Shown one piece after another: positions 41,299-47,582 of a DNA stretch of 47,596 nucleotides (position 1 is its first letter; each line of letters starts with the position of its first letter). The notes under the pieces are model-generated. The model made no database searches, was not told the DNA's origin, and was given only the letters and a program-made list of their open reading frames with translations. A program made the translations under genes and the position numbers. The DNA lies in assembly GCA_024640045.1 (NCBI GenBank), contig JAHEFS010000008.1:1-47596 (forward strand). The letters run 5' to 3'. This DNA comes from Chromatiales bacterium (GTDB taxonomy: Bacteria; Pseudomonadota; Gammaproteobacteria; Xanthomonadales; SZUA-36).

Positions 41299-42273
41299 TC
41301 AGGCGGGCGGGTACATATCCGCAGTCAGTCGGGCGCTATTTGCCACGGCCTCGCGTAAGGAACCGGGAGCCAGCACCTCGACCTCGGGACCGTAACGCAG
41401 GATATCCATGACCAGTTCCCGGGGATCGCTGAACGGCACCTCGAGTGTCCAGGCGCCTTCCTGATCGAAGGCACCGCTCTGATCCGGATGCCACTGTTCC
41501 TCGGCCACCCAGCGCGACATTTCCGGGCTGAAGCGTAACTTTGCCGTATGCCGGGCGGGCCCGGAGAAGATCCCATAGGACTGGTCGAAGTGCGCGGCCA
41601 GCACATCGGGCTCGACTTCCCGCGCCACCTCATCCAGCACCTGCTGCTCGCGAATCCGCTCGAGCGCAAACGAGCGCAAGCCTTGGGCTGTATGGCACCA
41701 CGCATCCAGGTACCAGGAATTGCGATATTGCGTTAGCCGCAGCGGTGAGACGTCCCTTTCACTGACTTCGTCACGGCGCCGGCCGTGATAACTGATATGC
41801 AGACGCTGGCGGCTGATCAACGCACCCAGAACGTCCTGGAACAAATGCTCTGGCACGGCGCGTCCCGCCACGGCCTGGATGTGAATGCGCGAATCGCCCT
41901 CTTCGGGTTCCACGCCTTTCTGCCTTAGCAAGTTGGTAATGCGGCCCTGCAGGCTTTCCAGTTCACCCTCCAGCAAGCCGGGCTGCACGTTTCCCAGCAC
42001 CTGCCGGGCAGTCAGCAGGGCTTGCAGTTCATCCGGACTGATCCAGATTCCGGGCAACTCGAAAGGCTGATCGTAACTGCGGTCGTAGTAGAACCCACGA
42101 GTATCGGGGTCCTGCTCGAGCGGCGCGCCGAGAAAATCCCGCAATTCCGCCACCAGGCGATACAGCGTGGCCTGCGAACATTCCAGGCGCTCCATCAAAT
42201 CATGGCGCGAAATCGGCGTGCGGCGCTGGCTGAGAATGTTATGCAGGTGATAGAGACGTTCGACCTTGGACAT
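41299..42273 (-). CDS. WYL-domain transcriptional regulator
   Basis: A 324-residue regulator. An N-terminal DeoR/HTH_11-like winged helix ([37 protein letters not shown]) is followed by a WYL domain (about residues 135-205: LHISYHGRR, ERDVSPLRLTQYRNSWYLDAWCH) and a WCX-like C-terminal extension. WYL proteins sense ligands, often nucleic acid or nucleotide, and control DNA repair or phage-defence genes, among others. No such target is obvious here. Its ATG overlaps the gltX TGA by one base (TGATG), so it is co-translated with gltX. Confidence 0.9.
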   Translation of the reverse strand: MSKVERLYHLHNILSQRRTPISRHDLMERLECSQATLYRLVAELRDFLGAPLEQDPDTRGFYYDRSYDQPFELPGIWISPDELQALLTARQVLGNVQPGLLEGELESLQGRITNLLRQKGVEPEEGDSRIHIQAVAGRAVPEHLFQDVLGALISRQRLHISYHGRRRDEVSERDVSPLRLTQYRNSWYLDAWCHTAQGLRSFALERIREQQVLDEVAREVEPDVLAAHFDQSYGIFSGPARHTAKLRFSPEMSRWVAEEQWHPDQSGAFDQEGAWTLEVPFSDPRELVMDILRYGPEVEVLAPGSLREAVANSARLTADMYPPA

Positions 42274-43685
42274 CAGGCTTCCGCCGCGCGCATGGCCACG
42301 AAATCGAGTGCGCGCCGGATGCGCTGCAGGCTGCGCTCCTGGCCACACAACCACAGGGTTTTGTCGATGGCGGGCGATACCGCAGTGCCGGCCAGGGCGA
42401 CCCGCAAGGGCTGGGCCACCTTGCCCATCCCCACTTCGAGTTCCGCCGCCACGGCATGAATTACTTCGTGCAAGGCCTCGGGACTCCAGTCGACCTGGTC
42501 CTCGAGCCGGGCCAACAGGGCCTGTAAAGGCTCCGCCACGACCGGGCGCAAATGTTTCTTGGCCGCCCCGGGGTCGAATTGGTCGAAATCCTCGTAGAAC
42601 ATACGGCTGACCTCGGCCATTTCAGCCAGGGTCTTGACCCGGTCTGCCTGCACACCGATCAGGTCGGTCAAGGCAGGCCCGTCGGCCGGATCAATGCCCA
42701 GGGCCTCGAAATGCCAGGCCAGGTGCGCCGCGACTTCCTCTGCCGGCAGGCTGCGCATGTAATGCTGGTTCAACCAGTCCAGCTTGTCGTAATCGAAAGC
42801 GGCCGCCTTGCGATTGACATCCTCGATGCTGAACAGGTCGATCATCTCCTGAGTGCTGAATACTTCCTGATCACCATGCGACCAGCCCAACCGCACCAGG
42901 TAATTGCGCAGGGCCTGCGGCAGGTAGCCGAGATCGCGGTACTGCATGACCCCGACCGCGCCATGGCGCTTGGAAAGACGAGCGCCATCCTCTCCGAGAA
43001 TCATGGGCACGTGCCCGAAAACCGGCGTCTCGGCGCCCAGCGCCCGGTAAATATTGATTTGCCGGGGTGTGTTGTTGATGTGGTCGTCCCCGCGCACGAC
43101 GTGGCTGACCTGCATGTCCATGTCGTCCACCACCACCGTGAAATTATAGGTCGGTGAACCATCTGGCCGGGCAATGACGAGATCGTCGAGCTCAGTGTTG
43201 GAAATACTGATGCGTCCCCGAACCAGATCCTCCCACACGACATCCCCATCCTGCGGGTTGCGGAAGCGCACCACCGGCCTGATGCCCGTGGGTGGAGTAT
43301 CCAGGCCCCGGCAACGGCCGTCATACCGTGGCTTGACCCCGTCTTTCATCTGGCCTTCCCGCAGCTCGGTGAGCCGCTCCTTGCTGCAATAGCAATGGTA
43401 GGCCTTGCCCTCGTCCAGCAGGGTTTGCGTCACCTCCGCATAGCGATCGAAGCGCTGGGTCTGGTAGAACGGACCCTCGTCGTGATCGAGGCCCAGCCAC
43501 TGCATGCCGTCCAGAATGGCCTGGACGGATTCCGGCGTGGAACGCTCCAGGTCAGTGTCCTCGATACGCAGGATGAAGGTGCCGCCGTCGTGGCGCGCCA
43601 TCAGCCAGCAAAACAGTGCAGTACGGGCACCGCCCACGTGCAAAAGCCCGGTAGGGCTGGGGGCAAATCGGGTTCGCATGGTCAT
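42273..43685 (-). CDS. gltX: glutamate-tRNA ligase
   Basis: A 470-residue class I aminoacyl-tRNA synthetase charging tRNA-Glu. The HIGH-type motif is in [15 protein letters not shown] (residues 8-21) and the KMSKS-type motif is RLSKRHG. The zinc-binding region holds HCYCSKERL and the later Cys of GRCRGLD. Two starts, MTMRT and MRT, are six bases apart. A terminator-type hairpin with seven T runs directly into the first ATG, which makes the leader unusual (see findings). Confidence 0.96.
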
Positions 43686-43750: not shown

Positions 43751-45976
43751 CTATCCTCCACAACTATCTTCTTCAATCGAGATCTGGTAGGTGATGGTAT
43801 CCAGCGCAGCGCTCAGATCGAAGGTAGTGAACGGATTATTCGCGGTGTCTGTCGCGGAGGTACCCGGCAAAGTGACCTCGTAACTGCAGGCCACGTAATT
43901 CGTGTTTCTCTTCTGATAATTGGAGACCCTTATCCACGGGTTGGATGCGTTTGTAGGGACCAGGCAGCTAAATCCATTACCCGTGCGATCACAGGATGCA
44001 TCGTTGGAGGAAATATCGACCTGGCTCGCCTGGAAACCGTTGATGCCGGTAACGATGAGGCCAGTCACGACAACGCCGTCCGGATCCGGTGGGTTTTCGG
44101 TATTGATGATGACCTGGATTTCACCTGAATCCGAAAACGTCTCGTAATCTGGGTCGACGGGGTCCGTGTCGGTCAGCCCCAGGTTGCCGCGATGCCCACT
44201 GGCAGACACCATCGCGTCCCCGGATGTCTGAACCTTGCTCGCCCAGCCGCGACTGTGCGTGTTACCTGTTTCCAGCGGTTCGTTCGTCGTTTCCACCGGG
44301 TCAGCGGGAGGGCTTTCCGTCCAGCGGTTCAGCTTGGTCAGCTGCACATCAAAAAACGGAATGATTTCCAGCACGTTTTCGCTACCGGTTTTGTCCAGCT
44401 TGTAGTAGTAGGGTCCTGTGCTGTCGCCAGCGTCACAGGAATCTGCATCACCACCGTCATTGAGACAGGTAATCAGAGATCGCAAACCATCACTCAGGTA
44501 ATCAATGTAGATACCCCGGGAACGCAACTGCTGCGAGTTGACACCCGTGGCCGTTGGCAGATTGGTGTAGGCCTTGGTCAGGTCATTCGCGGAAGGAAAC
44601 GCCGCGTAGGCTGTGCGCGCCGGAGGCGCCAGCGTAGGAGGTGAGTTCTCGTAGCCATCGGTCATGGACCCGACGAAAGTGCTGACACTATCGGTCACGT
44701 AGGTCGAATATGCGCTCACTTCACTTACCTGGTCGAGGAAATCGTACTGGAACGTGTTGAGTCCCTCCTGCCGGAAGTCCTGCGCCACCCTGAAAAACCC
44801 GTCCTTACGCACCAGCTTGCAGGCTTCGACGTAACGGTCTCCATCAGTGGTCGCTTCACTCAAGTTTCCGCGGCGGTCTCTCTGGTAATGCTTGTGATCA
44901 CCGGCAAACGTGTCGCCATCTGCCCAATAGTCCTCGCTGTGGCGAAACGGGTCATACAGGATTGCGCCGGGATCGCCGCTGGGGTCGTTGCTGCTGCTGC
45001 CGCCATCGTGGTGATCCTGGCAGCAGGTGTCGCACAGAAGGCTTTGCAGATTATTGGCGGAGACTCCGTAGGGTTTGGCCACGAACTCGGGTTCGATATA
45101 CTCATCACCGGCCCAAATCGTTGGCCTTCGCCCGCCATCGCTGGCCGCGTCCGGTGCAACGTTAAGTTCACACTCGCAACTCACCGCTGCGAAATCCTCG
45201 CGCCTCAGGAACAGGGAGCCGTTATCGCTTTGCGAGTAGGTGATTACCTCGAAACGGGTTTCCACCAACTCGTCATCGCGAATCACGGTCGGTTCCGGTG
45301 TTAGCGATTCCTTGAACTTGTTCTGACCCAATGACAGCGAAACGATGTCCGGATTTGCGCCCGGGTTGTAGTTGACGAATGGGTCGAAGTCGTTGTCCTC
45401 TTGCTGCGTGGTCACCCGGCCGGCTGCCTGCATGGAAACGGAAGAGATGATCGCTGACAGGGTGATCTCACCCGTTCCCAGGTCGACATCATTGCCGGAA
45501 GCGTCCTGCTGAAAACCCGCGCTTGCACCCCATGTGACGTTGAGCTCTATCAGTTTGAAATCTGATACTGCCGCTCCATCCGGTTCCGTGGCCGTAAACC
45601 CGCTGGCCGCCGAATCGTAGTAGTAGTCCGTCACATCGAAGGTCACGTCAAAGGCAATACCCCCGTCGGTAATCTGCACGGCGTCGGCCGTGCTGGCGAT
45701 GCATTGGTAACTGGACAAGGCGCCGTCTGCGCCGCAGGCAATCGGGTCACCGCTCGCATCCAGGCTGTCGATGTTGCGAAAAGTCCGCAGATCCTCGATG
45801 GTCCGCTCAGCAATATTCGCCGCCGTCGTGCGCAGATTTGCATCGCTCGACGAACGGGTCAGGCTGCCCTGCAGCGAAGCCAGCGCGAGCATCCCGATTG
45901 CGAAGATCACAACCGCAATCAGGACTTCCAGCAAGCTAAAACCTCGATGCAGTCCTTGAGTCATACTTTTGTCCAT
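43751..45976 (-). CDS. very large PilV-like minor pilin
   Basis: A 741-residue protein with a type III prepilin signal (leader ending HRG, then FSLLEVLIAVVIFAIGMLAL with Glu at +5), matching PilV-type minor pilins. Ordinary PilV proteins are about 150-200 residues; here about 550 further residues follow, with acidic, Asn/Ser/Thr-rich stretches and Cys clusters (CECE, CDTCCQDHH). The gene begins one base after the PilX-like stop, with GGGAG seven bases before its ATG. The C-terminus ends in SIEEDSCGG. It is likely exposed at the pilus tip; no enzymatic motif was recognised. Confidence 0.8.
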   Translation of the reverse strand: MDKSMTQGLHRGFSLLEVLIAVVIFAIGMLALASLQGSLTRSSSDANLRTTAANIAERTIEDLRTFRNIDSLDASGDPIACGADGALSSYQCIASTADAVQITDGGIAFDVTFDVTDYYYDSAASGFTATEPDGAAVSDFKLIELNVTWGASAGFQQDASGNDVDLGTGEITLSAIISSVSMQAAGRVTTQQEDNDFDPFVNYNPGANPDIVSLSLGQNKFKESLTPEPTVIRDDELVETRFEVITYSQSDNGSLFLRREDFAAVSCECELNVAPDAASDGGRRPTIWAGDEYIEPEFVAKPYGVSANNLQSLLCDTCCQDHHDGGSSSNDPSGDPGAILYDPFRHSEDYWADGDTFAGDHKHYQRDRRGNLSEATTDGDRYVEACKLVRKDGFFRVAQDFRQEGLNTFQYDFLDQVSEVSAYSTYVTDSVSTFVGSMTDGYENSPPTLAPPARTAYAAFPSANDLTKAYTNLPTATGVNSQQLRSRGIYIDYLSDGLRSLITCLNDGGDADSCDAGDSTGPYYYKLDKTGSENVLEIIPFFDVQLTKLNRWTESPPADPVETTNEPLETGNTHSRGWASKVQTSGDAMVSASGHRGNLGLTDTDPVDPDYETFSDSGEIQVIINTENPPDPDGVVVTGLIVTGINGFQASQVDISSNDASCDRTGNGFSCLVPTNASNPWIRVSNYQKRNTNYVACSYEVTLPGTSATDTANNPFTTFDLSAALDTITYQISIEEDSCGG

Positions 45977-45977
45977 T

Positions 45978-47582
45978 TCACTGCTCCCAGGTGATCTGCG
46001 GCAAACCGAAGTCTCGCCAGCCACCCGCCACGCCACCCAGGCCACCCCCGCCTCCCGCACTGGTCACGCCAGCCTCAGAATAGATAACCTTGAAGTTACT
46101 ACCGGTTGCACTACTGGGGAAAGGCACGTCCACGACCATTGCGCCGTAGACCGCGGAGGAACCGCCCGGATGAAACTCGGCGTCACCGTCCGTATCCTCG
46201 ACGTCGGCTACGTACAAAATGCCAAAGAAGTCGGAACTCCCGGTAAAACTGGTCAAGCTGTCCGCAGCCGAAACCAGGATGATCGGGTTATTGATGGTGC
46301 CAATATTCCCGGAAATGGTGCAGGTATCACCACTGAACCAGAAAAAGCCTTCGCTGTACTCATCGAGTATGCCGCAGTCATCGATCACCTCGGCATTGGC
46401 CTTGACCGCCTGGTATTGGCTACTCGGGTAACCGAAATAAAATTCGAACAGGTCACAGGGAAACGCATCGTCTTTCATGATGTCGATGCCAATGACCGGA
46501 TCATCCGGCGGATCTGAATAGGTCATGGCTTCCCCCTTGTTGCGGTCGCAGGAGCAGCCGGTCGTGTCGGATTGTGCCGGACACAGTGAATCCGCCGGTA
46601 GCGCATCAACTTCGTACCACTCCTGCAATTCACACGAGGTAAAGTCGCCCTGGAACAGATACCCGTCGGCCGCTTCTGTGTCGCCACCCGGAGCCATCGG
46701 CGGACAACTGTCGTCACCAATGTTGTTGTTGATCCACGTCGACAACGGTACACCCACACCGCCACCGTTCGGATTGGCCACAACTTCGAACGTACCCTGG
46801 CCCTTGACGGCATTTTTCGAGACGAAGGGAACGCTGGGTGAGCCGTTGAAATTTTCGACGGTTCCCAAGGGGCGGGCCACGTTGGCGCGGCCCCGGCACT
46901 CGCCCGGAATTTCAACCGCGCCATCTCCATCATCATCGTTGCAGTCAGAGTAACCATAGGCCAGCACCCAGAAGACAAACTTCGCGTCGGTCTCCAGATC
47001 GCCTGGTTCAGGAACACCATCGATGCCGAGGCAGGTGGTACTGAGCAGGGTTCGAGGGCAAATAACCGCGGTCATGCGAACCTCGGTGCCGGGCGAAAGA
47101 TTACCCAGCACGTCGGCGTCGACCGGCAGGGAGTCGAAGCCTTCCGTATCCGGGTCATCGTAATAGAGGCTACCCGTGCCTCCGGCCGCAATTTCACCGC
47201 CACAAGGATGATCCAGGCCGGGGTCTGCTGGGCATGCTGTCCAACGCGTATTGCCGTCCGAGAACCAGCCCGGATGGTAGGCCAAATCACCATCCTCGTC
47301 TTCATAGGGGCTCGCTTCCGTGGACTTCGAAGAAATTCGCGTGGCGTTGGCCAGCAGAAACTCCAGGGCATAGTCCATACCGGCCTCGGCGGTATGGAAG
47401 GCCAGCTTTTGCCGCAGGTCGTTACTGGACACGCGCTGCTCGAACAAGCCGACGCGCGTTGCGTAGAACAGCATCAAGGTCATCAAAATCAATACCAGGA
47501 TGGCCGTGAAAATCGTCAAGGCGCCACCCTGGCGCGACCTCGGGGCCAGGGCGATTTTCTGGCTATCGCGATTGCTGTTCAT
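45978..47582 (-). CDS. PilX-like type IV pilus assembly protein
   Basis: A 534-residue protein with a PilX-type N-terminus: basic leader (APRSRQGG), hydrophobic helix (ALTIFTAILVLILMTLMLFYA), then LRQKLAFHTAEAGMDYAL, as in PilX proteins that lack a Glu+5 signal of the classical kind. The long remainder is rich in Asp, Gly and Cys, with three acidic loops (DEDGDLAYHPG, NDDDGDGAVEI, DTDGDAEFHPG) and a terminal part of short repeated strands. AAGGAG precedes the ATG. PilX acts with PilV, PilW and PilY1 in priming pilus assembly; the neighbours right of the window are not visible. Confidence 0.82.
   Translation of the reverse strand: MNSNRDSQKIALAPRSRQGGALTIFTAILVLILMTLMLFYATRVGLFEQRVSSNDLRQKLAFHTAEAGMDYALEFLLANATRISSKSTEASPYEDEDGDLAYHPGWFSDGNTRWTACPADPGLDHPCGGEIAAGGTGSLYYDDPDTEGFDSLPVDADVLGNLSPGTEVRMTAVICPRTLLSTTCLGIDGVPEPGDLETDAKFVFWVLAYGYSDCNDDDGDGAVEIPGECRGRANVARPLGTVENFNGSPSVPFVSKNAVKGQGTFEVVANPNGGGVGVPLSTWINNNIGDDSCPPMAPGGDTEAADGYLFQGDFTSCELQEWYEVDALPADSLCPAQSDTTGCSCDRNKGEAMTYSDPPDDPVIGIDIMKDDAFPCDLFEFYFGYPSSQYQAVKANAEVIDDCGILDEYSEGFFWFSGDTCTISGNIGTINNPIILVSAADSLTSFTGSSDFFGILYVADVEDTDGDAEFHPGGSSAVYGAMVVDVPFPSSATGSNFKVIYSEAGVTSAGGGGGLGGVAGGWRDFGLPQITWEQ

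Follow-up and report, generated by a model that had tools for sequence, protein, structure and literature searches.

We describe an intact gene for a modular PilV-type minor pilin, PilV_L, and its oversized neighbour PilX_L, at one end of a 47,596-nucleotide stretch of DNA (the window) from a draft genome of a Chromatiales bacterium. Within the family to which this bacterium belongs, genomes contain either the gene set of these two pilins or the gene for PilY1, and no genome has both intact. This suggests that one could take the place of the other. In Gram-negative type IVa pili, PilY1 is regarded as the standard adhesin at the tip and the primer of assembly. We lean, with reservations, towards the idea that PilV_L and PilX_L, together with FimT and PilW, make up a pilin-only tip complex of the type IVa pilus that does the job of PilY1. 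If this is true, such a substitute would separate the tasks that are bound to PilY1 (priming, sensing, adhesion) from those for which any large domain at the tip suffices. Since close relatives bear one system or the other, the question can be tested by comparison.

Two oversized minor pilins and their predicted folds

The pilV_L gene is a single open frame of 741 codons on the minus strand, with its ATG at 45976 and its stop at 43751-43753 (Table 1). Its product has the prepilin motif G/FSLLE, in which the mature residue +5 is glutamate, and a Pfam search matched PF07963 (N_methyl) to residues 10-32. This bears out a sequence-only reading of the window, which had noted a canonical prepilin signal and helix on a 741-residue protein. 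The same reading was right about the unusual size. PilV proteins usually have about 150-200 residues, and PilV_L departs both from this size and from a full-length match to the PilV model TIGR02523; it scores just over the cut-off (52.7 bits against 52.2), and the match is limited to residues 11-73, corresponding to model positions 2-64 of 139. Outside the N-terminus the Pfam search found no significant family. PF05567, the C-terminal beta-propeller of PilY1/PilC, matches neither PilV_L nor PilX_L, and no relative of the extra module of PilV_L was found by a sequence search of solved structures.

The homologues for which the sequence-only reading had proposed a search do exist: relatives of PilV_L in other genomes are collinear with it over the full length and about 50% identical over residues 6-739. 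Since they are collinear over the whole length, we can exclude that the PilV gene itself results from a frameshift or an assembly join, which that reading had named as something that would refute its view. The observation is confirmed: in PilV_L a normal prepilin module is followed by a linker, probably flexible, and by an extra module of roughly 540 residues that has no Pfam match. With a class III signal, a pilin module and an extra module joined by a linker, PilV_L has the structural features of a modular type IV pilin. As to the "Cys-rich inserts" originally described, the extra part is a single C-terminal module behind a linker and not a series of inserts in the pilin.

Table 1. Features of the right-hand part of the window, with their coordinates
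Feature	Position	Strand	Basis or remark
gltX	42273..43685	-	left flank of the operon site, conserved across many relatives
pilV_L gene	43751..45976	-	741-codon modular PilV-type minor pilin
Distal beta domain (predicted), residues 631-741, most variable	43754..44086	-	UafA match; 34% mean identity
Ig/Big-like domain (predicted) with long insert, residues 403-630	44087..44770	-	VIA-align to LigA
Cys/His module, residues 200-402	44771..45379	-	61% mean identity; invariant Cys
CDTCCQDHHD motif, residues 315-324	45005..45034	-	invariant residues in 27/27
Low-confidence linker, probably flexible, residues 181-199	45380..45436	-	pLDDT below 50
Pilin head, residues 65-180	45437..45784	-	pilin part matches XcpV/GspI, VIA-align
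Leader (residues 1-12), prepilin site and N-terminal pilin helix up to residue 64	45785..45976	-	PF07963; AF2 helix 15-64
pilX_L gene, 534 aa, PilX_N domain and predicted beta-solenoid	45978..47582	-	PF14341; AF2; fold searches
Right contig end	47240..47596	.	overlaps contig C15 (1-357) at 95.8%

The AlphaFold2 model of PilV_L has a mean pLDDT of 76.6. As a whole it gives no Foldseek match at E 0.001. In VIA-align comparisons, where a Z under 8 may reflect merely a common arrangement, the whole predicted pilin part matches the minor pseudopilin XcpV/GspI of type II secretion systems (T2SS) with Z 8.2-8.3. For residues 402-628 the match is to Ig/Big domains, with Z 9.3 and an rmsd of 1.9 across 91 residues for LigA; residues 634-737 weakly resemble Ig-like domains of adhesins, with Z 6.7 and an rmsd of 2.9 across 83 residues for UafA. 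Judged by the model, the distal part of PilV_L looks Ig-like. The Cys/His module is barely covered by the fold searches, and we do not claim that its fold is new. It is the best-conserved part of PilV_L outside the N-terminal helix, with a mean identity among f1-type relatives of 61%, while the pilin head reaches 35% and the distal domain 34%.

The gene pilX_L lies one base upstream of pilV_L on the same strand, and the PilX that it encodes is oversized too. We take PilX to be equivalent to GspK, PilV to GspI, FimT to GspH and PilW to GspJ. None of the 19 PilX_L sequences has glutamate at mature position +5, and a single one (L056) has a glutamate further along the helix. The AlphaFold2 model of PilX_L is weaker than that of PilV_L (pLDDT 70.5) and has no Foldseek match reaching E 0.001; its top match is ComZ (6qvi) at E 1.3e-3. 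The solenoid in this model matches ice-binding proteins with Z about 10, including 4nu2 with Z 9.8. A superposition of PilX_L and ComZ over both domains is poor (rmsd 14.8), the two proteins have no sequence similarity, and searching the sequences of solved structures turned up nothing related to the extra module of PilX_L. For PilX_L the prediction is a ComZ-like beta-solenoid.

A ComZ-like fold makes DNA binding a serious rival to adhesion. The complex could be a competence tip, where PilX_L binds DNA as ComZ does, PilV_L is an enlarged partner of the PilA2 kind and attachment is not the main task. The portion of the ComZ report drawn on here argues for a location at the tip from structure, describes DNA binding by ComZ and a GspI-like partner, PilA2, and finds the ComZ solenoid to be most closely related to an ice-binding protein, 4NU2 (PMC6561018). 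The top Foldseek match of PilX_L and the match of its solenoid to that same ice-binding protein fit this explanation. Nevertheless, we consider it unlikely: the lack of sequence similarity to ComZ and the poor superposition speak against it, nothing in the description of PilA2 given there corresponds to the module of PilV_L, and the alternation with PilY1 reported below indicates a broader role at the tip than competence.

The operon and its genomic site

The window is an entire contig (C222) of the draft genome, so that the genes upstream of pilX_L lie beyond the end of the contig. This end overlaps another contig, C15. We regard the join as probable rather than proven, since the overlap is 95.8% identical over 357 bases. 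Beyond it C15 carries pilW and fimT, then a second pilV_L-pilX_L-pilW-fimT set, whose pilV_L is 51% identical to that of the window, and then a divergent pilE, followed by mltF. From the overlap and this content the likely order follows: mltF, pilE, two tandem fimT-pilW-pilX_L-pilV_L sets and gltX. The sequence-only reading had pointed to the DNA right of the window as a place to look for pilY1. Across the probable join there is none; pilW, fimT and another pilV_L set are found instead, and pilY1 is present neither in the operon nor anywhere on C15. The names mltF, gltX, dnaQ, rnhA, gloB, polA and aroE given to genes of the neighbourhood are presumed from the protein sequences rather than from a family search.

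The fimT-pilW-pilX_L-pilV_L operon, single or double, is also found in relatives, often between mltF and gltX. In a Lysobacterales draft genome (L001) the whole arrangement mltF-pilE-fimT-pilW-pilX_L-pilV_L-gltX lies on one contig. Eight genomes with PilY1 allow the mltF-gltX gap to be seen whole (G035, G087, G112, G082, G200, G152, G027 and G097). In six of the eight it contains no pilin gene; of the other two, G027 has a fragment of fimT there and G097 a lone fimT gene. Such relics suggest that the set was lost in some of the PilY1 lineages. The PilY1 operons themselves are located elsewhere. Their order is fimT-pilV-pilW-pilX-pilY1 and, where they are seen complete, their pilins are of usual size.

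Several genomes deviate from this picture. G097 has two PilY1 operons and, on another contig, a type B operon whose PilV has only 223 aa (L085, L116); it is the sole PilY1 genome of the window's family with a type B operon. In G049 and G186 (L051, L053) the type B operon is in another neighbourhood, near other genes. Because of this difference in neighbourhood we think that the operon has probably moved at least once. G007 shows a third kind of arrangement that lacks PilY1 (L107, 13750-18855): the locus encodes small pilins, a short PilV, a PilW and, in tandem, two PilX-like proteins (465 and 469 aa).

The draft genome from which the window comes has 5.9% contamination, and two of its other contigs deserve mention. 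A 3-kb contig, C52 (L049, 1-3044), carries a short pilV-pilW-pilX operon and, at the contig end, the N-terminus of a protein that we take from its sequence to be PilY1-like. This protein has no match in the other 38 genomes of the family. In view of that and of the contamination, C52 is likely, if unproven, to be foreign to the window's genome. On another contig, C126 (L047), there is a third pilV_L together with a second, different gltX, so that each gltX adjoins a pilV_L. The pilV_L of C126 is closer to other genera (68% identity to L005 and 48% to the window), and C126 may be a foreign or contaminant contig.

Distribution relative to PilY1

A search of 398 genomes of the order gave strong long PilV_L matches that cluster in the window's family, with 15 scattered genomes outside it. 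Of 321 genomes of the class, five, the window's own included, were matched by a profile of the extra module; in the four that lie outside the order the module belongs to the same type of operon. PF05567 has no match in two of these four (G399 and G657), a sub-threshold match in G456 and one match in G556, which therefore has both PilV_L and PilY1. PilY1 was searched as PF05567 across the order and with a family PilY1 profile within the window's family.

The window's family is represented by 39 genomes, all of them fragmented drafts. The PilV_L module profile matches 16 of them and the family PilY1 profile 13, two of the latter weakly (G152 and G117); not a single genome is matched by both. Ignoring relatedness, the probability of zero overlap by chance is 1.4e-4. 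The 22 best genomes, at least 90% complete and with at most 5% contamination, give a similar result: ten have PilV_L, nine have PilY1 and the overlap is again zero (chance 4.4e-4, relatedness ignored). Contrasts within the three mixed genera alone give 0.011 when G161 is counted as PilV_L-bearing. G161 is among the ten genomes in which these profiles detect neither protein; it has the N-terminus of PilV_L at a contig end and a full PilX_L. Also among these ten are G127, with a diverged set, and G191, with a partial set that ends at the contig end. The type IVa marker pilM is present in all 39 genomes (above the cut-off in 37).

Outside the family the picture is different. There 13 of the 15 genomes with PilV_L have PilY1 as well, compared to 13.7 expected by chance. 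Some genomes of the order (G273 and G380; L124, L065, L087, L088) have two separate type B operons in addition to PilY1. Since coexistence outside the family is as chance predicts, the exclusion is a feature of the family and not a law. The suggestion in the sequence-only reading that the protein perhaps replaces part of the role of PilY1 is strengthened within the family, where the two do not co-occur and the operon has no pilY1; the exclusion does not extend to the genomes outside it. Shared ancestry may account for part of the family pattern. One could go further and regard the operon as an additional, independent minor-pilin set that makes a second kind of tip, with its exclusion of PilY1 being an accident of descent and missing genes. 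This explanation benefits from the coexistence outside the family and from the fact that several members have the set twice, either in tandem or in the same genome. We hold it to be quite improbable, as it has to account for the zero overlap in the 39 genomes and in the best 22, for the contrasts within genera, for pilM in every genome and for the relics at the operon site in PilY1 genomes.

The cysteines and a proposed architecture of the tip

The sequence-only reading had drawn attention to clustered CDTCC-DHH residues that might bind metal or form disulfides. The motif is at residues 315-323 of PilV_L (window 45008-45034). In an alignment of 27 PilV_L relatives C267, C269, C315, C318, C319, H322, D324 and C386 are invariant, H323 is nearly so, and an HxH at 361-363 is kept in most. 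A first alignment lost L006 and L017 because their start motif was not recognisable; in the alignment of 27, L006 was added with hand-set coordinates, and L017 and L023 were left out. With the leader removed, the number of cysteines is even in all 27 mature PilV_L sequences (12 to 18) and in all 19 mature PilX_L sequences (4 to 20). These counts include L061, even though it is cut by a contig end, and L009 has no ATG at the chosen start. The PilV_L of the window has two additional cysteines, C81 and C92, that it shares with almost no relative. Controls were even in 11 of 17 cases for gltX, 14 of 22 for dnaQ, 16 of 19 for mltF, which is a weak control since most of its sequences have zero cysteines, and 8 of 8 for PilY1; the cytosolic controls are thus mixed. 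As related sequences are not independent, even counts are an indication and not a test.

Because of the even counts in 27 of 27 PilV_L sequences, which would fit pairing of all cysteines, we favour disulfides over metal, and CDTCC-DHH is most likely part of a domain stapled by disulfides. The His and Asp residues of CDTCC-DHHD may nevertheless be metal ligands. A further explanation would make the CDTCC-DHH region a centre of metal binding or catalysis and PilV_L an enzyme or metal sensor carried by the pilus. We consider it very improbable despite the invariant H322 and D324, the nearly invariant H323 and the HxH kept in most relatives, since all mature cysteine counts are even, as fits disulfides, and the fold searches, which barely cover the Cys/His module, returned no enzyme fold.

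A pilin-only tip could be built as follows. The modular minor pilins PilV_L and PilX_L would form, with FimT and PilW, a tip that replaces the usual minor pilins plus PilY1. PilX_L, GspK/PilX-like and without the glutamate at +5, would cap the filament and expose its beta-solenoid. The GspI-like PilV_L would pack beside or below PilX_L and project, tethered by its linker, a disulfide-stapled module made of the Cys/His domain and the Ig-like domains; this module might contact surfaces and bind a ligand there as a receptor or an adhesin. PilW and FimT would connect the two large pilins to the shaft. A bolder version, in which the tip effector of a Gram-negative type IVa pilus is exchangeable, the PilV_L/PilX_L set fully assumes both the priming and the contact functions of PilY1, lineages of the family have switched repeatedly between the systems, and the mltF-gltX island has been gained or lost, seems to us somewhat doubtful. 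In a partial coverage of the literature, judged by titles and the beginnings of abstracts, we recognised no paper that deals with the PilV_L/PilX_L set or describes how it alternates with PilY1.

We know several systems to which this one can be compared. The tip of the T2SS, GspH-I-J-K, resembles it in the XcpV/GspI-like pilin part of PilV_L and in having a large GspK-like cap; here, in contrast, the I-like and K-like subunits bear extra modules and the operon is of the minor-pilin type of type IV pili. The PilV-PilW-PilX-PilY1 tip complex of P. aeruginosa and M. xanthus is similar in that pilins of the FimT, PilV, PilW and PilX types are encoded together in genomes with the type IVa marker pilM. 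It differs from the present set, which is without PilY1, has pilV as the last gene, and has a PilV and a PilX that are two to four times larger. ComZ/PilA2 of Thermus thermophilus, as far as the cited part of PMC6561018 describes it, combines a GspK-like beta-solenoid pilin, with a solenoid nearest to ice-binding proteins, and a GspI-like pilin; PilX_L, with its predicted solenoid, and PilV_L may be such a pair. There is no sequence similarity to it, however, and the GspI-like partner here bears a module of roughly 540 residues.

Also comparable are the modular pilins PilB and PilC of S. sanguinis and CofB of ETEC, which like PilV_L have a pilin module and a bulky module borne on a linker (PMC8179133, PMC9934059, in the parts used here). 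In the PilA/B/C tip complex of S. sanguinis, two modular pilins are the effectors without PilY1, according to the same part of PMC9934059. PilV_L and PilX_L belong to these already known modular pilins, as a variant of them. What sets the variant apart is that it occurs in a Gram-negative type IVa pilus system with pilM, that two modular pilins are encoded in one fimT-pilW-pilX-pilV operon, and that the module is without a Pfam family and alternates with PilY1 within one family of bacteria.
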